Below are positions 5,901 to 20,355 of a stretch of DNA of 20,355 nt, one piece after another. The stretch comes from a virus. The notes under the pieces are model-generated. The model was not told where the DNA came from, ran no database searches, and worked only from the letters and a program-made list of their open reading frames with translations. The DNA is taken from IMG/VR virus record IMGVR_UViG_3300032286_000286, positions 1 through 20,355 of that record; one strand, written 5' to 3'. A program made the translations under genes and the position numbers. How positions within the stretch are numbered: the first letter of the stretch is position 1; each line of letters begins with the position of its first letter.

Positions 5901-6243
5901 TCTCAAGACCCTTTTCATTCTTTGCAAGAATAATTAAGTGATTATATACAGGGTTTAGTGGTGTGTCTTCACGTTCTGCCTTGTCTCTCTGGTCAAAGCG
6001 GTCTTGTGCAATGTATCCTTCGACACCAAGAATTGGTTTGATACCTTTTTCAATTGCGACACGATACATTTCACGGTGTCCAGATAGTGAACCGTGGTCT
6101 GTGATTGCGATGGCTGGCATTCCAATTTCGATTGCTCTGTCCACATATTCTTGTGGTGTTGCTATTCCATCAAACAAACTGAAATGCGAATGCATATGGA
6201 GTGCTATATAAGATTCTGATGTTTTGCTAATTGTTTTATCCAA
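2935..6243 (-). CDS. dnaE: DNA polymerase III alpha subunit (DnaE type) with intact PHP domain
   Basis: The 1102-residue replicative polymerase of the phage. The N-terminal PHP domain (about 10-230) has what looks like the full set of metal ligands: H16, H18, D25, H50, E75, H102, C152, D216 and H218. The palm follows, with GPGRGSSAGS at 390-399, catalytic PDID (D432, D434) and the third aspartate in KID (D579). The helix-hairpin-helix region GNGVNSRALQALRLVGA lies near 881-897 and an OB fold near 945-1000. No separate proofreading exonuclease domain or gene is seen, so the PHP domain may proofread. I see no QxxLF clamp-binding motif. The start is TTG at 6243; an in-frame TAA stands two codons upstream, and the next ATG (6195) would delete H16. 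The first 40 bases overlap the HNH gene. No intein interrupts it. Confidence 0.96.
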   Translation of the reverse strand: MDKTISKTSESYIALHMHSHFSLFDGIATPQEYVDRAIEIGMPAIAITDHGSLSGHREMYRVAIEKGIKPILGVEGYIAQDRFDQRDKAEREDTPLNPVYNHLIILAKNEKGLENLNKLNEIAWTEGFYKKPRMDWESLEKYKEGLIITSGCLSGYVAKAIEADDLAAAKEHLEWAKKTFGDDYYIEVMPHNPPEINKTILALADEFGIKPIVTPDCHHAGPEQREIQELKLILNTYSNKIEKDATFAGSQDYDNLMDKLDYLYGADRQITFRDYEIHLLSDEEMHKSMEAQGIVRQDMYDNTIEIMNKVEDYNIKDHLDLLPAQYQNPDQELYELAMEGLTARGVGADPAYHIRAEEELQIIKDKNFAPYFLVVRNMINWAKKESIMVGPGRGSSAGSLVCYALGITDIDPIKHGLLFFRFINPERNDFPDIDTDIQDSRREDVKDYLVRQYRHVASIATFLEFKGKGMIRDIARVLNIPLPDVNKVLKLVDDWDDYLRSKSTQEFREKYPEIELYGEQLRGRIRGTGIHAAGVVTAKEPIFKYAPLETRTTPGSKERIPVVAVDMEEAERIGLIKIDALGLKTLSVIQDTLAIIKERSGTNVDLYKLNMEDANVYRMLSDGYTKGVFQCEATPYTNLLVKMGIKNFAELAASNALVRPGAMNTIGKDYVARKHGKQNIDYKHEVLKSFTKETYGCILYQEQVMLACVELGGMSMAEADKVRKIIGKKKDAREFDVFKERFVKGASRFLTPVASEELWTDFEAHAGYSFNKSHAVAYSTVSYWTAWLKYHYPIEFMYSLLKNESDKDARTEYLIEAKRMGIPVRLPHINESDVDFKIEGKGIRFGLSSIKFISDNIANKYIDARPFASYKELEEFTFGKGNGVNSRALQALRLVGAATFTDQPRNDEEVRENLYEYLNLPEFNTSIPQHYHAFINDVEEYEEKGAYILMGMIKNIKRGKGWSRVELLDRTGSTGIFDDENTTIEAGRTYIVLASDNRIVTAIPADEIKGNPSGLIKILNFRQLPYKDDELFVVSFKPRVTKAGKKMASLVLADASREMHSVTVFPTSFSKAYMKIDEGNVYKFSLGKTKDGTIIMEDVENV

Positions 6244-6734
6244 TCTTTAAAGTCTTCTATTGACCTATCTAATTTTGCCACATTGCACCATTTGCAACAG
6301 GCTACTACATTACTATACAAGTATCCCACATTAGGGTCTACTCTGTCAAGTCCGTTTGTCAAAATATATGTGGACCATTGCCTATGACCTTTTGTTACTG
6401 TTGGTTTTGCATTACAATAAAAACAATTTTTTAAAGAAATTTCTTTAAATTGTTTTTCTGTTAAATTAAATCCTTTTTCTTTTGCATTTTTCCGTCCTTT
6501 TACAATTAAGTAGTGATTCTTCCAAGTTATTTCTTCCGAAGATTTTCTTTTTAAAATACCTCTACATTGATAGCAGGATTTTGCTTCTTTAAAATTTGTT
6601 GTTGGAGCAACAAAAGTTTTATTACAAAATGGGCAAAGAAAGTCCCAGGAGTTATGATTTTTTATTTTATAAGGACCAGATATAATTTTAACTCCAAAAT
6701 TATTTATATCTCCTATTTGCACGTTAAGTCTCAT
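6204..6734 (-). CDS. Free-standing HNH homing endonuclease with N-terminal zinc ribbon
   Basis: A 176-residue endonuclease. The N-terminal half has a zinc ribbon-like pattern CPFC (34, 37) and CYQC (54, 57). The C-terminal half is an HNH domain with CFYC (104, 107), NGLDRVD (127-133), GYxxSNVV (137-144) and CKWC (147, 150), matching the HNH class in which two CxxC pairs hold a structural zinc. The gene is clearly more AT-rich than its neighbours: bases 6421-6480 hold 9 G or C in 60, against 24 in 60 at 6001-6060 inside dnaE. This suggests separate ancestry. It lies directly before the polymerase gene and overlaps it by 40 bases, the usual placing of a homing endonuclease that targets an adjacent conserved gene. 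An extended -10 box six bases before the ATG suggests its own leaderless transcript. Confidence 0.9.
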   Translation of the reverse strand: MRLNVQIGDINNFGVKIISGPYKIKNHNSWDFLCPFCNKTFVAPTTNFKEAKSCYQCRGILKRKSSEEITWKNHYLIVKGRKNAKEKGFNLTEKQFKEISLKNCFYCNAKPTVTKGHRQWSTYILTNGLDRVDPNVGYLYSNVVACCKWCNVAKLDRSIEDFKDWIKQLAKHQNLI

Positions 6735-10246: not shown

Positions 10247-10485
10247 TACTTGTTGTCAGCCTCTTCTAGAGATTCCTTGACTTTATCAGCCAACTTTGCT
10301 TCAACAAAAGAATAGACACGTTCAAACGCATCTGTTATGTTTTCTCCCTCACGCTTGCTATCCGATACAGATAGGTCAATGCGGAGTGATTGGAAGTTAC
10401 CTAGGTTAAGCGTATAGCCTAGACCTACCGTTACCTTAGTGCTGTCATTAACTACAGCATTATTTACTACTTCACTCATTCTCAT
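10246..10485 (-). CDS. Small protein of unknown function (79 aa)
   Basis: I do not recognise a function. The 79 residues contain a beta-rich centre (TKVTVGLGYTLNLGNFQSLRIDLSV, spread over about 16-40) and an acidic C-terminal helix (AKLADKVKESLEEADNK). It may be a small DNA- or protein-binding fold, but no catalytic motif is visible. The ATG at 10485 overlaps the HNH stop as ATGA; a second ATG at 10479 is possible. No good Shine-Dalgarno site precedes either, so coupling to the HNH gene is likely. TAATG joins it to the 102-residue gene. The HNH gene probably inserted directly before it, which may have replaced its original 5' signals. Confidence 0.72.
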   Translation of the reverse strand: MRMSEVVNNAVVNDSTKVTVGLGYTLNLGNFQSLRIDLSVSDSKREGENITDAFERVYSFVEAKLADKVKESLEEADNK

Positions 10486-10997
10486 ACCAATTTTCTGCGA
10501 GAATTCATTATTCCAGATATTGTGGTTCTCGCTACCCCAAATATATCTGCTACCTGTTGATGTGTCTTACCTAATGATAGCACAAGATGCCTTATCGTGT
10601 CAATATCTGCATTAGATAATTTTGCATTTGGATGGTTTTCTCCAGATGCAAGTTTCTTATTTTTAACTGCGTCTTTTGCATTTTCGGAGTATGTTCCATA
10701 TTTTAGATTACTAACAATATTATTAGTCTTTATATCGTCTATATGGCAAACTACTGTATTTTTCATAGATGGTCCAATAAAAGTTTCTGCTACCAATCTA
10801 TGCACCAAAAAATTTTTTCTTACTTGTTTTATACATAATGTTACAGATGGATAACCATTTGAAAACCATTGAGTCATTATTTTAGGACTGTCTGGTTTTT
10901 CTTTACTATTTCCAACTGGTCTCCAACTTCTTACGTTTCCTAAATTAGAAACTTCATAGTCATCTGACCAAGATACTTTTTTCCAAATTTCATTCAT
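10482..10997 (-). CDS. HNH homing endonuclease with NUMOD4 and C-terminal helix-turn-helix
   Basis: A free-standing homing endonuclease. It has an N-terminal NUMOD4 DNA-binding motif (EIWKKVSW...YEVSNLGNVRSW), an HNH core of the HNH_3 type (VHRLVAETF, then VCHIDDIKTNN and NLKYGTYSENAKDA), and a C-terminal helix-turn-helix (KLSNADIDTIRHL through TISGIMNSRR). The domain order is that of the I-HmuI-like phage endonucleases. I choose ATG 10997 (171 residues) rather than ATG 11003, because an extended -10 box lies exactly six bases before it and no ribosome site serves either start. It lies between the helix-turn-helix gene and the small gene before the helicase operon, which it joins by ATGA. It is a different family from the HNH gene beside dnaE, so two independent invasions are likely. 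Confidence 0.92.
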   Translation of the reverse strand: MNEIWKKVSWSDDYEVSNLGNVRSWRPVGNSKEKPDSPKIMTQWFSNGYPSVTLCIKQVRKNFLVHRLVAETFIGPSMKNTVVCHIDDIKTNNIVSNLKYGTYSENAKDAVKNKKLASGENHPNAKLSNADIDTIRHLVLSLGKTHQQVADIFGVARTTISGIMNSRRKLV

Positions 10998-11003
10998 AAG
11001 CAT

Positions 11004-11557: not shown

Positions 11558-12010
11558 TTATAGTTGTGTTAGCCCTACAGCCATAATGGATAGGTCAAAA
11601 TTGACATCGGAACTATAGGCTGCTTCACTGTATATATTTACTACGACTGTGCAGCCATAATTTGTAACACTAGAAACTATAGTTCCTGGAAGATGTACCC
11701 CTAATTGAGATGCTGCAAAATCAACTGATGCAAATACAAGTGGTGGTGCAAGAAAAGTTTTTCCAAAAGAAATATTAATTGATTTAGATGCAATAGTTTT
11801 TGCAGTAGTATTTTTCATTGTATCCGAAATACGATTAGTTGCTATTGCAAAAGTTCCCATATAAGAATTAACGACTTGCTTAGTTGCGGTGTTGTATATT
11901 GGAGATATGGTATTAGCAAACTTGCTAGAAATACCATTTACTGTGTCAATAATTTGATTTAGTTGTGTTTGGTCAACTAAAGAGTTTGTAGAAATGTTTG
12001 GAATAGTCAT
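11558..12010 (-). CDS. Tail fibre/tip-like structural protein (150 aa)
   Basis: A 150-residue protein with the look of a small tail-fibre or receptor-binding tip. The first 40 residues are helical and could form a trimeric coil (LVDQTQLNQIIDTVNGISSKF). The last 75 are beta-rich (FGKTFLAPPLVFASVDF, GTIVSSVTNYGCTVVVNIYS, DLSIMAVGL) and resemble the lectin-like H-type fold found at ends of phage fibres. This is a resemblance in pattern, not a proven match. It directly follows the other tail genes. TGGTATAAT six bases before the ATG at 12010 suggests that it can be transcribed on its own as a leaderless message. There is no Shine-Dalgarno site. Confidence 0.65.
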   Translation of the reverse strand: MTIPNISTNSLVDQTQLNQIIDTVNGISSKFANTISPIYNTATKQVVNSYMGTFAIATNRISDTMKNTTAKTIASKSINISFGKTFLAPPLVFASVDFAASQLGVHLPGTIVSSVTNYGCTVVVNIYSEAAYSSDVNFDLSIMAVGLTQL

Positions 12011-12025: not shown

Positions 12026-12562
12026 CTAAACAATTGTTCCCGAATCAAGAATGGGCAAAGTGCTTAACGTAATTGTCTGAAAAATAAGTGCATTAGTATT
12101 AACAATCTTTTTACCTGTAGACACCTGAACTGCAACTTTTACAAATTTTGCTTTTACTGTAGATTGTAGCGGTATCTTTGTATAGTAAGTATTTGTGTTA
12201 ACTGTTTCTGCGTATTCAAAGTCCGAGAAGGTTGCTGTCATTGGGTTGGAATCCCAAGACCAAGCAAAGTATATATCAAATTTAGATACTGAAAAAGAAT
12301 CTGGAACAGTCCATCTAACATTAATGCCTTCGCCACCAGACTCAACGGAACTTACAGAATATTCTGGCACAAAACCATTCAATAACTGAGTCGTGCTCTC
12401 CTGATTAATCTCATTTACTTGTGACCAAGGAGACAGTTGCTCCCCAGTTTCTGAAACAATTGCATATCTGACTAAATAAACAATGTCTGAAGACGAGTCG
12501 CTTATGGTTGCAGAAGACTGGTTTTTTGGATTAAAAGTTGCTTGAACGGTTTGCTCAGACAC
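12026..12562 (-). CDS. Fibronectin type III-like tail protein
   Basis: A 178-residue beta-sandwich protein. The segment VYLVRYAIVSETGEQLSPWSQV (split over about 28-49) and the later INVRWTVPDSFSVSKFDIYFAW (about 79-100) have the strand and Trp/Tyr spacing of fibronectin type III repeats, which are common decoration or adhesion domains on phage tails. Nothing suggests an enzyme. The start codon is GTG at 12562, which shares one base with the stop of the previous gene (TAGTG), so translation is probably coupled; the upstream ribosome signal is weak. The position between two tail-fibre-like genes supports a structural role. I am confident that it is a gene and moderately confident of the fold. 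Confidence 0.75.
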   Translation of the reverse strand: MSEQTVQATFNPKNQSSATISDSSSDIVYLVRYAIVSETGEQLSPWSQVNEINQESTTQLLNGFVPEYSVSSVESGGEGINVRWTVPDSFSVSKFDIYFAWSWDSNPMTATFSDFEYAETVNTNTYYTKIPLQSTVKAKFVKVAVQVSTGKKIVNTNALIFQTITLSTLPILDSGTIV

Positions 12563-13938
12563 TATAGCACATCCACTACATACTTAAATTCTATAAAACT
12601 TTTTGTGTTATTCAACTTTATAATAGGCAAAGCATCTGATGACTTTATGACTGTATATGCTGTAAGCCCATACTTGCTGTTGAAAGATGATACATTTTCT
12701 ATTCTTAGTGCGTCTAATGCAACATAAAAATCTGATGCTGCAGCACCACCAATGGTATCTTCTATGTCAACAAAAACTTTTATATACCTGACATCTGACC
12801 AAGAAAAATTTCCAGAAGTCTTATACAAAGACTGCATTGTTTTGCTAACAACAACATATCTGTTATCTGTAAAGTTGTGTTGGGTGCTACTTGTAGCCCT
12901 ACCTCCAACAGTAATTGCACCAGGATTACTTCCAATATCAAGTATAAGTGTAGAACCAGTTGTTCCTGTCTGTGCTGTCCAAGTTCCGTTGTATTCGGCA
13001 GGGGTAATTCCAGAAATAACTACTTGTTGACCAACAGAAATATTATGTGCATTTGCAGTAGTAATTGTAATATTAGTTGTTCCAGTAGGAGTATGAGTAT
13101 TTATTCTTGTACCGTTATTTAAATTAACTACAAGACTTGCATATTCTGGACTTGCTCCATCACTATTTGCAAACTGAACCAAGACCTTAACATTACTTGG
13201 AACATCTGGACTAGGAACATTACTACCATCCACACCATCTTTGTTTATAACAGAAAAGGCTAATCTAATTTCATCTTCCGAAGAATTTTGACTTATACCC
13301 AAATCATCTGTTTCTAAATGAATATGATTTCCAGAAGAAACTGATAAGTCATTTCCATTGACTATCAGTGACGATGTGTCTCCTCTTATAAGTAAAACGC
13401 TACTTAAATATCTTGGTTGTTCGTATTTGGCAATTCTTGCTGGATTATTTACATTCTCAAATAATGCGTTTTCTGATGTAGTAAAAAATGCATCATCAGT
13501 TATTGTTATATTATTATTTGAGTCAGTTATAACTCCTGTTTGCTGTGGTACATCAACTATTGCTGCTGGGCTGGCTGTATGATATTTCCAACTTTCTCCA
13601 AAATTAAATAGTGCAAGTGCCTTGCTATCTGAGCCAGTTGGTATTGGATTTGATATAGATGGATATACCCCAATCTCTGTAATTGCATATCTTTCTGTTG
13701 TTGGTAGTTCTGCAGTGAATATTACTTGAGTTACCCCATTTTCAGTAACAATGTTTCTAGATGTAATAGGAACTCTAATCATTTCAAAATCCAAGGATGT
13801 TTTACTAGAATAAGTTCCGAATGGAATATCGGTTGATAGTGGTCTTGCTCCGCAACCCAGTACTATGTGAGATGCGTAAGTGTCTGTTAGTCCGATTAAA
13901 TATCGTCCTATAATTTGTTTTCCAGTGGTTGTAATCAT
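12562..13938 (-). CDS. Minor tail / tail fibre protein (458 aa)
   Basis: The N terminus (about 1-130) resembles the attachment domain of tail-collar or fibre proteins: MITTTGKQIIGRYL, ASHIVLGCGARPL, then RYAITEIGVYP. A beta-rich region follows. Residues 285-348 hold a module starting GTTNITITTANAHNI and containing YNGTWTAQ and IGSNPG. The 1551-residue tail protein has a related copy. In this protein the module splits a sandwich domain, since the strands before it (YASLVVNLNNG) and after it (NFTDNRYVVVSK) look like one fold. AGGAG lies about eight bases before the ATG, a strong ribosome site, behind an extended -10-like box. Role: likely host-surface contact or tail tip. No catalytic motif is seen. 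Confidence 0.8.
   Translation of the reverse strand: MITTTGKQIIGRYLIGLTDTYASHIVLGCGARPLSTDIPFGTYSSKTSLDFEMIRVPITSRNIVTENGVTQVIFTAELPTTERYAITEIGVYPSISNPIPTGSDSKALALFNFGESWKYHTASPAAIVDVPQQTGVITDSNNNITITDDAFFTTSENALFENVNNPARIAKYEQPRYLSSVLLIRGDTSSLIVNGNDLSVSSGNHIHLETDDLGISQNSSEDEIRLAFSVINKDGVDGSNVPSPDVPSNVKVLVQFANSDGASPEYASLVVNLNNGTRINTHTPTGTTNITITTANAHNISVGQQVVISGITPAEYNGTWTAQTGTTGSTLILDIGSNPGAITVGGRATSSTQHNFTDNRYVVVSKTMQSLYKTSGNFSWSDVRYIKVFVDIEDTIGGAAASDFYVALDALRIENVSSFNSKYGLTAYTVIKSSDALPIIKLNNTKSFIEFKYVVDVL
12895..13086 (-). repeat. Copy A of an inserted tail module shared with the large tail protein
   Basis: Encodes residues 285-348 of the 458-residue protein. In the first 42 aligned residues I count 27 identical to copy B at 17805-18008, including GTTNIT, YNGTWTAQ and, further on, IGSNPG. 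The DNA is also similar; CCAGGATTACTTCCAAT on the plus strand is common to both. Confidence 0.8.
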
Positions 13939-13949
13939 AATATTCTCCT

Positions 13950-13971
13950 ATACAATTGTATCATAGTGATA
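13950..13971 (-). promoter_or_regulatory. Extended -10-like promoter and palindrome before the 458-aa tail gene
   Basis: TGATACAAT reads 13963 to 13955 on the minus strand, an extended -10 with one change from TATAAT. Transcription near 13948 would leave a leader of about 11 bases that still includes AGGAG. The hexamer lies inside a perfect 12-base palindrome, ATACAATTGTAT (13950-13961). A second small inverted repeat, TATCA/TGATA (13959-13971), adjoins it. This could be an operator; chance in AT-rich DNA is possible. Confidence 0.4.
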
Positions 13972-13977
13972 AGTAGT

Positions 13978-14892
13978 TTAGTCTGGCAATATTGTTACAC
14001 CAGTAGCAGTAACAACCCTTACGCCACCAATTTCTACATATATTGGGTAACTTTTGCCAACAACAAAATTTTTATGAACGGCTGTTGGGGTTTTTGGAAT
14101 TTTTAATGTAAATATGCTACTTGTACGTCCTAACATGCTTACAGGAGTTTCTGGGCTTGTTACGAATCCGCTTTTTCTTGATGTAGTAGTTGTAATTCCC
14201 TTATGTGTAACTGTTATGGTATCTCCCTTTTTAGCACTAGTTGGAGTAAAAGATATTAATTCGAATGAAACTGTTGTTGCTTGAGTTACTACTGCCGCTG
14301 GAGTTTGAACCTCAACTTTTACTTGATTTGTGTTTGTAGTAGTTGCAGCATTTGTAGTAGTTGTTGCTGGCTGGACTGGGGCAGTTGAAACTGTTGCAGC
14401 AGGTGCAGTAACTGTAGTAGTTCCAGTAGCAGGAGCAATAGCAACAACTGTATTTTCAACAGTTGATGACGAATTTTTAATATAATCAGTATTACTATTT
14501 TGTGTTTTAACAAGTTCAATTGGGTTTGCTGCGTTTACAACAACGGTGGCATCAAGAACATTTTTATTTAAACTTAAGGAGTTGTTTGACATATTAAAGT
14601 TTCTTGAAACTTCTAGAATTTGTGTGCCAGTTAATGCCATAAAAGCCACACGTTCTTCTATGCTGAAGTCTGCTTTTGTTTCTTGAACCTTTTCCACATA
14701 GTTAGTTGGATTTGATGTTTTTACTACATCCTTTTTTTCTTTATCAATGTAATATTTATTTCCTGGAATATTTGGAGTTGTTTCTAAATAAGTTTTTGTT
14801 TTTGCAGATAACTGTATTCCCTTATTTAAACTACTTGTTAAAACACGACCATATTGTGTGTTAGTGTATTTTGGTGGTTTTTTATCTGCCAT
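13978..14892 (-). CDS. Tail-associated protein with Thr/Ala-rich linker and TIG-like end (304 aa)
   Basis: Three parts are visible. Residues 1-145 are mixed, with a charged, Lys-rich start. Residues about 146-207 are a low-complexity Thr/Ala/Val/Pro linker (for example TTTVTAPAATVST), without charged residues over most of its length. Residues about 208-304 are beta-rich and begin FELISFTPTSAKKGDTITV, the usual opening of IPT/TIG immunoglobulin-like domains. I do not know the precise role. The position directly after the large tail protein (TAATG overlap, GAGG about eight bases before the ATG) suggests a tail-tip or baseplate accessory held on a flexible stalk. No signal peptide is present, which argues against a secreted host protein. 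Confidence 0.7.
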   Translation of the reverse strand: MADKKPPKYTNTQYGRVLTSSLNKGIQLSAKTKTYLETTPNIPGNKYYIDKEKKDVVKTSNPTNYVEKVQETKADFSIEERVAFMALTGTQILEVSRNFNMSNNSLSLNKNVLDATVVVNAANPIELVKTQNSNTDYIKNSSSTVENTVVAIAPATGTTTVTAPAATVSTAPVQPATTTTNAATTTNTNQVKVEVQTPAAVVTQATTVSFELISFTPTSAKKGDTITVTHKGITTTTSRKSGFVTSPETPVSMLGRTSSIFTLKIPKTPTAVHKNFVVGKSYPIYVEIGGVRVVTATGVTILPD

Positions 14893-17800
14893 TATAGTAC
14901 CTCACTTAAATATAAAATTGTTGAAGGACCAGTTTCTTCTCTTTGGTATTCAGAAGCATAGATAACAAAGTTATTTCCGCTTACAGTATTTGGTAATGTC
15001 TTAGTTGTGTCATACACAAAAGAAACAATATCCCCTAATTGAATAATGGGCATACCAAAAACTCTGACTGCTGCAACTTTTCTAGGTTTAGAAATTCTAT
15101 TAATAACAAAATTCATTAAGTTTTGTGCTAGGTCTACAGTTTGAATGTAAGGAGAGTCTATTACAAAAGATTTTGAACCATAAAGTAATCTGTTATTCTT
15201 TATGTCTGTATACTTATTTTTATATTCTACAGAAGTATATTTTGCTGCTCCCACATAACTGCTTGTGTAATTGCTTTTTTCTGTTAAAAATTCATCTACC
15301 GTCAAATCTCTTGCTGCTTCTTGTGTAAAAGTAACCCCTGTAATGCTTACGTTATCTAGATAGTCTTTGTTTGCACCCAAGTCTAAAACAAAATCAGTGG
15401 TGTTAAATATCAAAAATTCTGCACGATAAGGTGTAGAATTATAACCAGCAACAACATATCCACCCAAAGATGCTGGTACTGGAGATATTAGAGATGTTAA
15501 TGCTGGATACGCTTTATCAAATTTGACGTTAAAGTAAGCACACTCTCTCATAATTGAACCAAACTCTTCATAAAAGATTTGACTTTCTGGAATACTTGAT
15601 GTTGAAAGTTTAGACAAGAAACCAGTTTGAACTAATGGGCTTAATGTATATTTACTTCCAGATATTCCAGAAACTTTTGTATCATCAAAAACTTTAACGC
15701 TGTTTGGAAAAGAGCCAATTGTATATGCTGTTTTATTTTTTTCATCTGCTGTTAAGTTTTTGTCAACTGTAATTGTCATCTCGTTTTTACTTAAAAATCT
15801 TCTCATTGCATATGTGTTTTCAAACATTACCTGTGAAGAACCACGAACAAAAAGAGATATGCTTCCTGTGATACCATCGTTGATTGGTTCTTTGTCTTCA
15901 ACTATTTTTATTTGTTCATTATCTAAATACAAAGAAAAGACCCAACTTGAACTACTAGTTTTGCTAACGCTTACGCCAATGTCGTAAACAGAATCAGTTT
16001 CTTGTGTTTTTAAAACTTTTCCAGTAAATTTTCCAGTATCTGTTAAAATATTTCTAAACTCTTCGTGAAGTATTGTAGGTATCAGGACTCCGTTAGCATT
16101 TTCTTTTAGTTTATAGAAAAACAAAGTATTAATTGTAGAAGATGTTTTTACTACTTCTGGTCTTGTATACTCTAAAGCAACTAATTCATAGTAGTACCCT
16201 TCTCCCTTAGCATTAGTCAATATTGCTATGCCGCCAGACTTAGCACCTATTTTACTAGGACCAGTAACAGAAGTTCCATCTTTGTTAAACTTTTTTAAAT
16301 TACTACCCAACTCGTATGCTGGATAACTAGAGCCTAAAGAAACAAAATCTGGGTCTTCTGTAGCATCGCCAAAAAGCCTAAGCCTTGCTCCATAGGTATC
16401 ATAATCTATTTCACTTGCCAAAGATTTTTTAACATATCCAATTGCACCCATTTCAGTTTCTGGTTCTTTAAAAGTTGGTCCTGTCAGAACTAAGCCAGAA
16501 GATTGAATTGATTCTGAAGCAACCTTTGTCTTACTTGTCAAACTATATACTTGTCTACCTAAAAAATTTTTAACTTTTGTTTGTGTAGTTACCGATTTAT
16601 TTTTAATATTATCTTTGTTGGCAGTAATTATTGCTATGTTATCTTTTCCTTTAAATAATTTTTGAGGATTTGTTGGCAAAGACTGTCTCTGAGTTTCCCA
16701 CCACGAAATTATTGTTCCATCATCTACCTTATGTTCTGCAATAGTTGTTCCAAATTGTCCACGACCATGCTTTGAGACCTTTCCAAATTTATAAGTTCCA
16801 TTAGTTTCGTAAAAAGGTTCCGCATATATTCTTACCTTACCAGTTTTATACATCTTATCGCCCTTATTAATTTTTGAAAAATAATATTGATATTCTTCAT
16901 TACTTGTAATCCAAACTGTATTTTCCGAATCTGCAGAACCATAACTATATTCTATTGCATCATATTTTATGATTTCCCCATTTGAATAAAAATAACCAGA
17001 GTATCTTCCAAGCCAATAAGCACCATCGCCAAATTCAATAATGTTATTTTTTATTGCTGTTCCATTTGCAAAATTATCAACTTCTGGAATAGCAACAGTA
17101 AGAGTTTTTGCAAGTGGAATTGCTGTCAGTGGATATGCTGTCTGAGTAACATCTTCTTCATTCTTAGATTGAAGATTTTGTTCGCTTGCTTCTAATGACC
17201 ATAAGACAGACCTTTGATATTCAAAAACTTGATTTTTATCTAATTGAGACAGAGATTGTAGGTCATTTGGTTGTTTTTGAATATATCTATTATAATAAAC
17301 AATCTTTCCATCATTATAAATATCATTTGACTCAGAGTTAATTTCTAAAATGTTTGCCCTTCTAGGACCGCTGTCAATACCGTAAAGGCTAATATCTTTA
17401 TTTCTAACAGAAGTTGATTGTGGAACAAGATATTCTTTGCTCATAACAACAAAGTTATTTACTTCATCAAAGAACATTGTTGTTTGAGTTGCTACCGCCA
17501 AATCCTGCAGAACCTGCATAATGTTTTTATCTGGTGAAACCATAAAAAAAGGTATTACTGCATCGGATTTGTTTCCCCTTAAAAATTTGTAGTTTGAAAA
17601 ACCAATAGAGTCTAGCAATGTTGCAACAATAAAACTAACAGAAACATTTCTTAACAATATTTCTGGTGCTAAAAATGATTCAAAGTAAAAAGTTAAATCT
17701 CTAAGAGACATAGATACATCTCTAGTTGCATCACTATATTGTGGAAAACCATCTGAATACATTGTTTTTACTGGAACATGAAAATCTTTATAGGTTGGGT

Positions 17801-19547
17801 TAGATTTAATCACTGTTCCAACTGTTGTAATGTTTCCAGGATTACTTCCAATGTTTAATACAAGTGTAGATGTAAGTTTATCTGTTCCAGATTGAGCAGT
17901 CCATGTACCATTGTATCCATTAGGTGTGACTCCAGAAACTATAACTGTATCTCCTTGATTTATTCCATGATTGTTTTCTGTTTTTATTGTAATGTTGGTT
18001 GTTCCAGATGGTTGCGGACTAGTTGATAAAATAGCAAATTCTTGTGGAACATTTGAAACAGTCTCATAAAACTTTATCTGTAAACTTTTACTAATCAATG
18101 TTATTGTAGAACTTATGTTTAACAAACTATTTATATTATTTTTGTTAAGAACCTGATTATTATCAAATATTGTGATGTCTCCAGTAGATGCTAATAGTTG
18201 ACCAACTGGAAGATTGCTAACTCCTAAGTCTGAAGCAAACTTTTTTACAGAAAAAGATGACACATTGTCTGTAATGTCTACTTCTAGTCTCGGAGATAGT
18301 TCGATTAAGTCAAACACTGTGTTTGTATTTAGCATAGATGTAACTAAAATTCTTAGTCCTTTGATATATTCAAATTCTCTGTAAACTGTTACCGAACTTT
18401 CTACAAAGGATGGTGCAATTGTTTTGTCTAATTCTGTTACAAATAGTTGTGAATTTGTAATTGATTCCTCGCTCTTATACCAACCATATGTTGGAACGAT
18501 GGCATCATAATTAGTTAAGGTGGTATCTGAAACCTGACCATTATAAATATACAAAGTTCCTTTATCTGTAGTAGATGATTTTATTAAATATGATTGCCCT
18601 TTTCTTTTAGGCTCCTGTATAAGTGGCAAGGCTGCTGTTGAAGAAAGGTTTCCAATTATTGTAAAAGTATCTTTATAGGCTCCACTAATTATTTGTGTAT
18701 TAGTTATTCCATAAGAGAGTTGAAAATATCCATCTTCAGTAAAGACATCTTGTCCATTTGGATATGATACAGAAACACTGTCATAGATGTCTACCCAGTT
18801 TGTGCCATTATACTTTTGCACTTTCCAGGATAGTGGGGTAGATTTGTGGTTTGGAGTAGAGCCAGAATAAAATGGGTCAGCGTTTGCTGTTGGCAATGAG
18901 TTGTTGCTACTAATATTTGTTTGAACTTTCACAACAACCTTGTTTGTTGGCACTAAATTTTTATATACTACAAATGGGGCAGCATCTTGAATTAGTTTAT
19001 CATTTCCAGACACAACTCCAGAAATTCCATACTCTACATTGTCTTGAGTTCTATATGAAGACCAATATTTAAACTTGTCATCTTTGCTTGCTGCATAATA
19101 TCGTGGGGTCAGGAATGTGTCATTGTTACTAGTAAGCGGAATTATTTTTTTATTCTTTCCAAAAAATCTTAATTTATTAATACCAGAACGAGGTCTAAAT
19201 CTATTAAAACAGTCTTCTAAAGACATTAATGACTTTTGTCTTTCTTTAGATGTACGGAATGTTACTGGCGTTAATGCTTCATCTGTATACCCTCCGTCAA
19301 TTACAACATCATAATCTGTATATCCATACCATTCGTTTGTGGCTGCTGTGGCTTCATTTTCATTTGCATTCCAAGTTGTATTTGGTGCAGTATTGGCTGG
19401 ACCTCCAGAAGTTGGTCTATTTTTATAATTACCAATTGCCTGAATAGTTTCATAATTATTTAAATTCCATTCAACGATTACTTTACTTTTAGTGGCAACT
19501 GTTGAAGAAGTTTGTAAATGATTAGTTAAAGTTATATCAGAATACAT
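14892..19547 (-). CDS. Very large tail / baseplate protein with LamG-like domain (1551 aa)
   Basis: The largest gene here. I place the start at ATG 19547, which shares TAATG with the previous stop and has GGAAG seven bases upstream. An ATG at 19580 would add 11 residues but has no ribosome site and a 34-base overlap. Visible parts (1551-residue numbering) are an N-terminal beta-rich region, then an inserted module at about 514-581 shared with the 458-residue tail protein. A hub-like segment at about 630-710 follows (VSFIVATLLDSIGF, then VLQDLAVATQTTMFFDE). A concanavalin/LamG-like domain lies at about 1140-1250 (WVFSLYLDNEQI, ITGSISLFVRGS). The end GMPIIQLGDIVSFVYD is typical of tail-tip hub proteins. 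It probably forms part of the tail tip or baseplate and may bind surface sugars. No peptidase or muramidase motif was noticed. Confidence 0.85.
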   Translation of the reverse strand: MYSDITLTNHLQTSSTVATKSKVIVEWNLNNYETIQAIGNYKNRPTSGGPANTAPNTTWNANENEATAATNEWYGYTDYDVVIDGGYTDEALTPVTFRTSKERQKSLMSLEDCFNRFRPRSGINKLRFFGKNKKIIPLTSNNDTFLTPRYYAASKDDKFKYWSSYRTQDNVEYGISGVVSGNDKLIQDAAPFVVYKNLVPTNKVVVKVQTNISSNNSLPTANADPFYSGSTPNHKSTPLSWKVQKYNGTNWVDIYDSVSVSYPNGQDVFTEDGYFQLSYGITNTQIISGAYKDTFTIIGNLSSTAALPLIQEPKRKGQSYLIKSSTTDKGTLYIYNGQVSDTTLTNYDAIVPTYGWYKSEESITNSQLFVTELDKTIAPSFVESSVTVYREFEYIKGLRILVTSMLNTNTVFDLIELSPRLEVDITDNVSSFSVKKFASDLGVSNLPVGQLLASTGDITIFDNNQVLNKNNINSLLNISSTITLISKSLQIKFYETVSNVPQEFAILSTSPQPSGTTNITIKTENNHGINQGDTVIVSGVTPNGYNGTWTAQSGTDKLTSTLVLNIGSNPGNITTVGTVIKSNPTYKDFHVPVKTMYSDGFPQYSDATRDVSMSLRDLTFYFESFLAPEILLRNVSVSFIVATLLDSIGFSNYKFLRGNKSDAVIPFFMVSPDKNIMQVLQDLAVATQTTMFFDEVNNFVVMSKEYLVPQSTSVRNKDISLYGIDSGPRRANILEINSESNDIYNDGKIVYYNRYIQKQPNDLQSLSQLDKNQVFEYQRSVLWSLEASEQNLQSKNEEDVTQTAYPLTAIPLAKTLTVAIPEVDNFANGTAIKNNIIEFGDGAYWLGRYSGYFYSNGEIIKYDAIEYSYGSADSENTVWITSNEEYQYYFSKINKGDKMYKTGKVRIYAEPFYETNGTYKFGKVSKHGRGQFGTTIAEHKVDDGTIISWWETQRQSLPTNPQKLFKGKDNIAIITANKDNIKNKSVTTQTKVKNFLGRQVYSLTSKTKVASESIQSSGLVLTGPTFKEPETEMGAIGYVKKSLASEIDYDTYGARLRLFGDATEDPDFVSLGSSYPAYELGSNLKKFNKDGTSVTGPSKIGAKSGGIAILTNAKGEGYYYELVALEYTRPEVVKTSSTINTLFFYKLKENANGVLIPTILHEEFRNILTDTGKFTGKVLKTQETDSVYDIGVSVSKTSSSSWVFSLYLDNEQIKIVEDKEPINDGITGSISLFVRGSSQVMFENTYAMRRFLSKNEMTITVDKNLTADEKNKTAYTIGSFPNSVKVFDDTKVSGISGSKYTLSPLVQTGFLSKLSTSSIPESQIFYEEFGSIMRECAYFNVKFDKAYPALTSLISPVPASLGGYVVAGYNSTPYRAEFLIFNTTDFVLDLGANKDYLDNVSITGVTFTQEAARDLTVDEFLTEKSNYTSSYVGAAKYTSVEYKNKYTDIKNNRLLYGSKSFVIDSPYIQTVDLAQNLMNFVINRISKPRKVAAVRVFGMPIIQLGDIVSFVYDTTKTLPNTVSGNNFVIYASEYQREETGPSTILYLSEVL
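17805..18008 (-). repeat. Copy B of the inserted tail module
   Basis: Encodes the segment beginning SGTTNITIKTENNHGI and ending TVIKS in the large tail protein. It is related to copy A at 12895-13086, with a two- to three-residue length difference in the second half. Flanking strands (QIKFYETVSN before, KDFHVPVKTMYSDG after) look like one interrupted domain, as in copy A. Confidence 0.8.
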
Positions 19548-20355
19548 TATGCCTCTTCCAGCGTAATAGAAATATTCCATAAGTCATGGTTTGTTCCACC
19601 ACGTTTATCTACACTGTATGTAAAGTCTGTAATGTACATTTCCAATACCTCGCTATATTGTGTCAAACGATTATAGGCTGCATCGGCTTTTCCAAACTCT
19701 GTATATTTGTCATAAGATAAACATACATAAAAAGTTCCAGAATGGGTTTCGTACCAGTCCAGTAACTCTGCACCGCCAGCACCACCGTCTATGGTGTACT
19801 GGTCAGTGGCGGTATCTGGTTTTCCTGTAGAAGTATTAAAGTTTGGGTCTGAGCCAAAAGACCTAGATGGAAGATTTTCCCAAGAAATACTCAAAGTTCT
19901 TTTATCGGCAACCCAATAAGAACGCATACGACCATTGACCATACGCTGGCGATTCTCAATTCTTTGCACTCCAAAATCTAGCGGACCTCTGTTATGGTCA
20001 GAAACAATAATAAAATCTCCACCATTGTTTGTGCTATTTCCAAATTCATAGCCATCTGGAATATATTGAGAAACATAATACTGTGAATATGTATTTACAA
20101 CTGATGATTGTTCAATCATTGCTGCATCAAAATATACTTTTTTTCCTGCGTCTCCTACACTAAATGATGTTGTAGAAGAAACATAAGGTCTAACGTAAAG
20201 TGGAACAGTTGGACTGCTTCCCACAGTTGCAGGAACAGTAAACGTAACAGATACGCTAGTCCAAGATGATGTAGAAACTGTTGTGGCTGTTCCTATGGTT
20301 ACACCTTGACCACCAATATATGTAGGAAATGCGTCACAATAATCAATACCTGCGG
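19547..20355 (-). CDS. Tail protein with CBM-like jelly-roll (partial, 5' end beyond the right edge)
   Basis: The frame is open from the right edge to the TAA at 19547, giving 268 visible residues. A GTG at 20224 could be misread as the start, but the same frame continues upstream with in-family sequence (IDYCDAFPTYIGG, VSVTFTVPATVG), so the gene is cut by the window. The first 85 visible residues resemble a carbohydrate-binding jelly-roll (VTFTVPA, VPLYVRPYV, KVYFDAAMIEQ), a common module on phage tails. The rest (QRMVNGRMRSYWVADKRTLSISWENLPSR, split over about 139-166, to the C terminus) looks like a beta-rich tail structural domain. Its stop shares TAATG with the large tail gene, so the two are translated together. 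Function: probably tail tip or distal tail structure. Confidence 0.82.
   Translation of the reverse strand, partial: AGIDYCDAFPTYIGGQGVTIGTATTVSTSSWTSVSVTFTVPATVGSSPTVPLYVRPYVSSTTSFSVGDAGKKVYFDAAMIEQSSVVNTYSQYYVSQYIPDGYEFGNSTNNGGDFIIVSDHNRGPLDFGVQRIENRQRMVNGRMRSYWVADKRTLSISWENLPSRSFGSDPNFNTSTGKPDTATDQYTIDGGAGGAELLDWYETHSGTFYVCLSYDKYTEFGKADAAYNRLTQYSEVLEMYITDFTYSVDKRGGTNHDLWNISITLEEA

Follow-up and report, generated by a model that had tools for sequence, protein, structure and literature searches.

The viral stretch analysed here (IMG/VR record IMGVR_UViG_3300032286_000286, 20,355 bases, hereafter the window) encodes two tail proteins, A and B, each of which is interrupted by a copy of the same small module. 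The two copies are homologous to each other and to further copies in related phages, where the module occupies numerous and diverse sites that are empty in some sequences and differ between related phages; the copies are under purifying selection and resemble a known beta-barrel fold. The module is read, with more confidence than doubt yet well short of certainty, as a promiscuous, selected and mobile insertion module that probably presents an exposed adhesion surface, a function that we infer by analogy. Because the window is smaller than the contigs of several relatives, other parts of its phage probably lie out of sight.

The two copies and the domains that they interrupt

12892-13089, minus strand: module copy A, residues 284-349 of protein A; blastp match to copy B and hidden Markov model (HMM) hit; insertion absent in L004, L015 and others; predicted local distance difference test score (pLDDT) 44-54
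17805-18011, minus strand: module copy B, residues 524-592 of protein B; HMM hit; copy absent in L004, L005 and others; pLDDT 76-87
12562-13938, minus strand: protein A, tail protein of 458 amino acids (aa); PHROG match to phrog_9983 over residues 1-122
14892-19580, minus strand: protein B, minor tail protein or tail hub of 1562 aa; phrog_10359, E 8.3e-48; hub fold
12688-13632, minus strand: beta-sandwich of A resembling a carbohydrate-binding module (CBM), residues about 103-417, split by the module; VIA-align to CBM chains
17427-18284, minus strand: gp27/gp44-like hub domain of B, residues about 433-718, split by the module; VIA-align, Mu gp44

A blastp comparison aligns residues 284-370 of A with residues 524-609 of B (49 of 89 positions identical, E 7e-22), and the Smith-Waterman score of 219 for A against B compares with a mean of 55 (standard deviation 8) and a maximum of 93 for 500 shuffles of A; at the DNA level, the copies are identical at 74 of 103 positions over the module's second half and at 20 of 22 near its start. 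This relationship had been proposed in a first-pass annotation of the sequence, whose count of 27 identical residues among 42 in the first part is exact when taken at A286 and B526; its placement of the B copy at about residues 514-581 has to be shifted about 10 residues further on, to 524-592. The same annotation spoke of two copies, which is correct for the window, while the relatives contain many more.

For B, an AlphaFold2 model of residues 390-790 from an alignment of 72 sequences has a mean pLDDT of 71.9 and a predicted template modelling score of 0.58, with the strands and core of the module at pLDDT 76-87. Residues 44-329 of this model align in VIA-align with the tail hub protein gp44 of phage Mu (9ki1_G; Z 12.3, 161 residues aligned, root-mean-square deviation 2.6), and the module, at model residues about 135-203, is flanked by the strands 112-123 and 208-220, which supports a predicted position of the module within a single tail-hub domain.

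The AlphaFold2 model of A (alignment of 65 sequences) has a mean pLDDT of 83.4, and its module blocks at 281-350 reach only pLDDT 44-54, so that no shape is read for the module there; the flanking strands comprise residues 266-275 and 361-367. The CBM-like reading of A comes from the VIA-align comparison only, in which residues about 101-422 match CBM chains, CBM4-2 among them, at Z 8-10 (e.g., CBM11 at 9.9, CBM30 at 9.2 and CBM28 at 8.4); a Foldseek comparison of the A model with known structures gave no match under E 0.001. Moreover, residues 1 to 455-458 of A match gp105 of Listeria phage A511 and the phi812 baseplate arm (Z 10.2-10.8). Protein A would then be nested, with an arm-like shell that encloses the sandwich and a sandwich that encloses the module, an arrangement read from the first and last aligned residues alone, as the structure comparison reports them. 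Homologues with empty sites and the predicted structures of both proteins bear out the earlier suggestion that the flanking strands form one split beta domain, the module itself being confidently modelled only in B.

Copies and empty sites among relatives

In the first sets of relatives' loci (74 and 80), a search with an iterated HMM returned 71 hits in 61 open reading frames (ORFs). With further loci added, a profile of 48 copies gave 99 hits in 80 of the 5183 ORFs of the window and its relatives, corresponding to 81 distinct sequences (loci overlap or repeat), and no hit in the same 5183 ORFs reversed. Sites were mapped by stripping the copies and realigning, and are numbered by stripped residues of the window. 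Family A has six sites, at about residues 36, 70, 140, 196, 286 and 337, of which 36, 70 and 337 lie in loop-rich stretches and are uncertain in their exact columns; family B also has six, at residues 181, 526, 678, 914, 977 and 1103, some of them supported by one sequence. An additional row at site 398, from L109, is a contig-end artefact and was left uncounted.

Among non-redundant sequences, some of them incomplete, any copy is present in 34 of 116 in the A family and in 12 of 110 in the B family, and the remaining 82 and 98 carry none; the module is accordingly not a fixed part of both families. The A site used in the window is filled in six sequences (the window, L001, L003, L005, L035 and L037) and the B site in four (the window, L001, L002 and L003), the contigs of L035 and L037 stopping short of the latter. 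Relatives lacking the module at the same sites, which the first-pass annotation had proposed to search for, were found; for example, L004 reads through the A site as 'VNLDNGT SAGQWDFTNNRYVVV' and through the B site as 'ETISKVKQSDNSYRDYHIPLKTM'. Both gene trees pair L004 with L005 as sisters, and the A copy is present in L005 but missing from L004, which indicates that loss or replacement of the module also happens. A search of 42 related phage records chosen from the loci found copies in 24 of them (E up to 0.01) and none in the other 18.

Distant relatives of B, at less than 60% identity, occur in 122 records of isolated phages, 119 of which are Streptomyces phages, and those that span the site appear too short to hold the module (e.g., in TunaTartare, 311 query residues against 669 nucleotides). 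Isolated phages gave no match to protein A at 1e-5 and no tblastn match to the module consensus at 0.01; the presence of the module in isolates therefore rests on PHROG profile matches. In these, single copies fall into virion structural, major tail, tail fibre, head and major head families, in agreement with the earlier remark that the pattern is widespread in phage structural proteins.

Evidence for movement between proteins

A third carrier, protein C, allows two relatives, G002 and G003, to be compared directly, as their C genes are 74.6-76.0% identical in DNA outside the inserts. In G003, a copy of the window's subtype (TPTGTTNIT...NIGSNPGAIT) occupies residues 753-818, where G002 reads FDSG followed by GILTN with nothing between; the insertion measures 234 nucleotides, is in frame and has GGA at both ends. 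Conversely, C of G002 carries a copy of the window's subtype at residues 138-201, and G003 is empty there. In a tree of 53 copies, the A286 and B526 copies form one clade (support 100/99), and in a tree of 76 copies made by a quick method, the A286, B526, C753 (G003) and C138 (G002) copies form a clade of 11 (Shimodaira-Hasegawa-like approximate likelihood ratio test 100); near-identical copies, L035's included, were dropped from the latter. As the trees are built on only 65-66 columns, many of their deeper branches are unresolved. Copies excluded from alignments were 2 of 50 (A1), 11 of 76 (A2) and 3 of 75 (A3).

The module DNA of A in the window is 62% identical to that of B, 76% to that of C753 and 84% to that of A in L003, and the contrast between 62% and 84% indicates that copying between A and B is older than the split of these phages. 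Mobility of the module between proteins is well supported by these comparisons, and copying in either direction would agree with an A site filled in six sequences and a B site filled in four. The earlier proposal of a recent spread by recombination stands as far as the spread is concerned, with one subtype at four sites in three proteins and homologues with empty sites; the word 'recent' holds only within limits, as the A and B copies are closest kin in the tree yet arose by copying older than the divergence of these phages. Gene conversion linking the two proteins was considered but not seen: the A copies are closer to the A copies of other phages than to the B copy of their own genome, and target-site duplication was likewise set aside, the sole repeat being an uninterpretable GGA at one junction.

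Nonsynonymous and synonymous divergence (dN/dS) between the window and L003 is 0.05/0.76 for module A against 0.08/1.09 for the rest of A, and 0.14/1.07 for module B against 0.14/1.03 for the rest of B, ratios that are rough because several pairs are close to saturation at synonymous positions. Module dN lies well below dS in 10 of 10 A pairs and in 6 of 6 B pairs; the module thus appears to be under purifying selection, and neutrality is unlikely.

Other carrier proteins

The module is found in at least seven protein families of the phage group, namely the Dit-like protein, hub protein B, protein A, a 178-aa protein, protein C, a long fibre and a connector-position protein; protein C and the connector-position protein are probably part of the virion. 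The Dit-like and 178-aa proteins are represented in the window as follows.

19547-20224, minus strand: protein upstream of B, Dit-like by position; no module and no Pfam family; homologues in L050, L066 and L068 carry the module
12026-12562, minus strand: 178-aa gene after A; no module in the window; homologues in L008 and L016 carry a copy at two different sites

The Dit-like homologues of L050, L066 and L068 hold copies at two or three sites; the label for the protein preceding B is a putative one, given by position alone. In L155, a homologue of the Dit-like protein follows a long protein that looks tape-measure-like by eye. L155 is a contig of a Chitinophagaceae metagenome-assembled genome that encodes both the Dit-like protein and a relative of B (52% identity in the best segment), with no module hit there; the contig may be a phage that was binned wrongly, or it may hint at the phylum of the host. 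In the window, the Dit-like ORF (19547-20353, minus strand) lies at the contig edge, and its opening segment resembles a CBM by eye and could not be aligned with the N-termini of seven relatives; this odd start is either a fusion or a misassembled contig end.

G003, the closest relative, carries 12 copies in five structural-looking ORFs: six in a 2779-aa fibre, three in the 1370-aa protein C, and single copies in A, in B and in a 380-aa protein. The fibre (L156:2058-10397) has a Major tropism determinant (Mtd) N-terminal domain and contains its six modules within a long composite repeat, and protein C matches no PHROG family and appears LamG-like by eye. The 380-aa carrier lies two genes after a PHROG 1623 (head and packaging) protein that is taken as the major capsid protein, and is termed a connector from this position. 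Ten homologues of the connector-position protein, fetched as carriers only, all have a copy and are 52-92% identical in the pairs printed. Furthermore, a C homologue of 1083 aa in G018 has a copy near residue 51, which reaches about 49% over 71 residues with the connector-position copies of other phages (L159:1041-2204 and L159:7190-10438) and may be a second hint of copying between proteins.

Fold and family relationships

The module of the B model shows a predicted FCCH beta-barrel fold. In VIA-align, model residues 122-206 match residues 180-260 of yeast Uba1 (Z 7.2, 76 aligned, root-mean-square deviation 2.6, 18% identity), the E1 enzymes listed against the model ranging from 9 to 21% identity, and the module also matches the head-to-tail interface protein 9jlf_E (Z 7.9). 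With Foldseek, endosialidases (E about 3e-3) and E1 enzymes rank after hub proteins. Searched against the PDB, the 48-copy profile matches the phi92 endosialidase 4hiz over its barrel (E 1.5e-6, positions 2-66 of 69) and, more weakly, the K1F endosialidase 1v0e (0.045) and Uba1 (0.16, 26 positions only). Residues S460 and S468, singled out in the study of the endosialidase (PMC12632334), would lie within the matched endosialidase stretch if the 1v0e chain begins at residue 246, which we take to be its start.

The Pfam family E1_FCCH (PF16190) is touched by 16 of 48 single copies at E up to 10 (best 1.2e-6). In bit scores, six of ten single copies match at 12.4-21.7, all under the cut-off of 29.5, and four have no match; the first 1381 residues of the G003 fibre reach 30.1 bits, with the first copy as the best stretch. 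The endosialidase barrel family PF12195 is touched by 6 of 48 single copies (best 0.0078), with 13 bits for L154 against a cut-off of 35. Among 14 control genomes, PF16190 matches occur in E. coli, Caulobacter, Methanocaldococcus and Haloferax, above the cut-off in one. Public annotations presumably call such phage proteins 'E1 FCCH domain-containing protein'. No E1-enzyme role was found for the module: wherever a carrier matches a family, it is a tail or head protein of phages, and the module is therefore a relative of the E1_FCCH fold family and not an E1 domain in function.

Two other assignments were rejected. An Ig-like domain gave one-member matches only (DUF5001 at 0.045 and a PKD model at 0.05, among 25 of 33 families shown for 48 copies), the fold being that of the E1 FCCH barrel. 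An aspartate decarboxylase-like match over residues 270-310 of A (E 0.005, below the cut-off) was unsupported by the copies scanned; weak decarboxylase entries also appear in the PDB results of the 48-copy profile, at E 0.8-1.5.

Proposed function and alternative explanations

As proposed, the module would be a self-folding beta-barrel of about 65-78 residues. Recombination would place in-frame copies of its DNA in the loops of virion proteins, frequently between two adjacent beta-strands. Entry would proceed by illegitimate recombination, followed by later exchange between copies, and the close-set ends of the module would let the interrupted host domain still fold. Each copy may display an adhesive, probably glycan-binding, face outside the virion, and the copies together could add weak, multivalent attachment to the host envelope or to polymers in the environment, in the manner proposed for phage Ig-like domains. 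A shared binding function placed at two tail positions, as the first-pass annotation had suggested, is a plausible candidate role. The best pointer to the ligand, again by analogy, is the endosialidase barrel, which is one of three polysialic-acid sites and a host-discrimination hotspot where some changes alter discrimination (PMC12632334). The CBM-like domain predicted in A and the sub-threshold H-type lectin match at 11558-12010 may point toward glycan binding as well. At the same time, the FCCH of E1, itself inserted through two loops, makes contact with ubiquitin (PMC12355090), so that such a barrel can serve as a protein contact too.

Several observations weigh against an adhesive mobile module. 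Jelly-roll proteins other than CBMs match the sandwich of A similarly, e.g., a haloarchaeal virus turret (Z 10.9), a complex I assembly factor (9.7), cyclases (8.5) and insecticidal Cry proteins (about 8); since these equal the CBM scores, the model supports a jelly-roll or CBM-like fold for this region of A, and not a carbohydrate-binding function. For the module itself, Z-scores of 7-8 are within the range that can reflect a common fold arrangement, a value under 8 not being decisive alone, and for the two copies in the window no match to E1_FCCH or to the endosialidase barrel family was obtained, the window record having no PF16190 match at E up to 10. The endosialidase barrel is, overall, largely permissive to substitution (PMC12632334). 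The connector-position copy would be far from the receptor end, a place that suits general adhesion or stabilisation more than the recognition of a receptor. The sequences reveal no insertion mechanism, GGA at one clean junction being the only repeat, and the adhesion role is proposed by analogy.

It is possible, although rather unlikely, that A and B acquired their modules independently from other phages, their likeness reflecting a common donor pool and not copying within the lineage. Protein C of both G002 and G003 has copies of the subtype as well, and a donor beyond the sample is possible; among the 53 and 76 copies, however, A286 and B526 are each other's nearest kin save for the protein C copies of the same phages. 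Structural reinforcement, in which the barrel is a spacer or clamp that steadies contacts between virion subunits with no outside ligand, is unlikely, even though copies reside in hub, Dit-like and connector-position proteins, which usually form rings, in all ten connector-position homologues fetched (carriers only), and in a barrel that matches the head-to-tail interface protein 9jlf_E at Z 7.9 and whose E1 counterpart is a protein contact surface (PMC12355090). Most A and B homologues have no module, which makes it dispensable for assembling those parts, and the sites are unrelated, which implies no common contact partner. Least probable by far is a tolerated passenger, a neutral insert that persists since it folds by itself in loops: the many unrelated sites and the varying presence between related phages would suit it, but the module is under purifying selection like the rest of the proteins (with synonymous sites near saturation), which disfavours neutrality, and several sites are retained across divergent phages.

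Neighbouring genes

All genes described here lie on the minus strand. Between the replication and tail genes, positions 10482-11003 encode a 173-aa homing-type endonuclease (HNH_3 and NUMOD4), a possible driver of recombination; it was rejected as the mover of the module, as nothing ties the two together. A RecA-family recombinase is encoded at 1600-2604 (Pfam RecA, 2.5e-38), and the phage therefore supplies its own strand-exchange protein. The 176-aa cysteine-rich protein at 6204-6734 appears HNH-like by eye and has a sub-threshold Pfam match to Lar only. Downstream of A, the 150-aa protein at 11558-12010 is the one with the sub-threshold match to H-type lectins (18 bits; cut-off 24). Between A and B, a 304-aa protein at 13978-14892 contains a segment rich in Thr and Ala and ends in a region that resembles TIG/IPT domains by eye, with no credible Pfam family.

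Relation to known systems and significance

The closest concept to the module, by analogy, is that of the promiscuous Ig-like domains, which are likewise small, shuffled among several unrelated virion proteins and variably present. Fraser et al. in 2006 reportedly described such domains on phage virion proteins. They belong to another fold and family and are often terminal or appended, whereas in A and B the module splits a domain. Contact with carbohydrates has been proposed for some Ig-like types, and modular Ig-like adhesins are described (PMC13370021). The module shares with E1_FCCH a beta-barrel fold, a loop-held insertion in another domain (PMC12355090) and, for some of its copies, similarity to the sequence profile; E1 is, in contrast, a eukaryotic enzyme with one fixed site and a ubiquitin contact, and the phage module has many sites and, in the window, copies below detection. 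The endosialidase barrel (PF12195; 4hiz, 1v0e) is connected with the module by a profile match and a Foldseek match and likewise occurs in a phage tail protein, the barrel there being glycan-binding (PMC12632334); unlike that single barrel of a tailspike enzyme, the module is accompanied by no visible enzyme, and single copies match PF12195 weakly.

Ongoing domain shuffling in phages has been documented, with contemporary mosaicism concentrated in receptor-binding proteins, baseplate proteins and endolysins (PMC10684548); that source names N-terminal Ig-like and lyase domains, and the term 'FCCH' is absent from its main text. No paper on FCCH-like domains in phages was found in the open-access PubMed Central literature, so that a description may be in print elsewhere; in the FCCH literature consulted, mentions of phages concern anti-phage defence, phage display or references.

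An improbable but consequential extension is that the FCCH of E1 descends from mobile prokaryotic or viral insertion modules, acquired by in-frame insertion of a barrel into a loop, the outer face of which later bound ubiquitin. One review describes the FCCH domains of NAE1 and SAE1 as unique to eukaryotes (PMC11354881), and a viral pool would therefore be new there; if the extension were true, the phages would still harbour, as a living pool, the domain family from which a core eukaryotic enzyme took one of its parts.

For the phages themselves, the module provides a natural series in which one domain moves from loop to loop across many phage proteins, some sites being empty and copy numbers varying. 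How phages move pieces of proteins can be tested on real pairs, such as protein C of G002 and G003 or protein A of L004 and L005, and the same pairs are open to tests of how tail-hub loops tolerate insertion and of what a promiscuous virion domain does. In addition, an unexplained and widely distributed phage sequence pattern is tied to a fold with a known glycan-binding relative.

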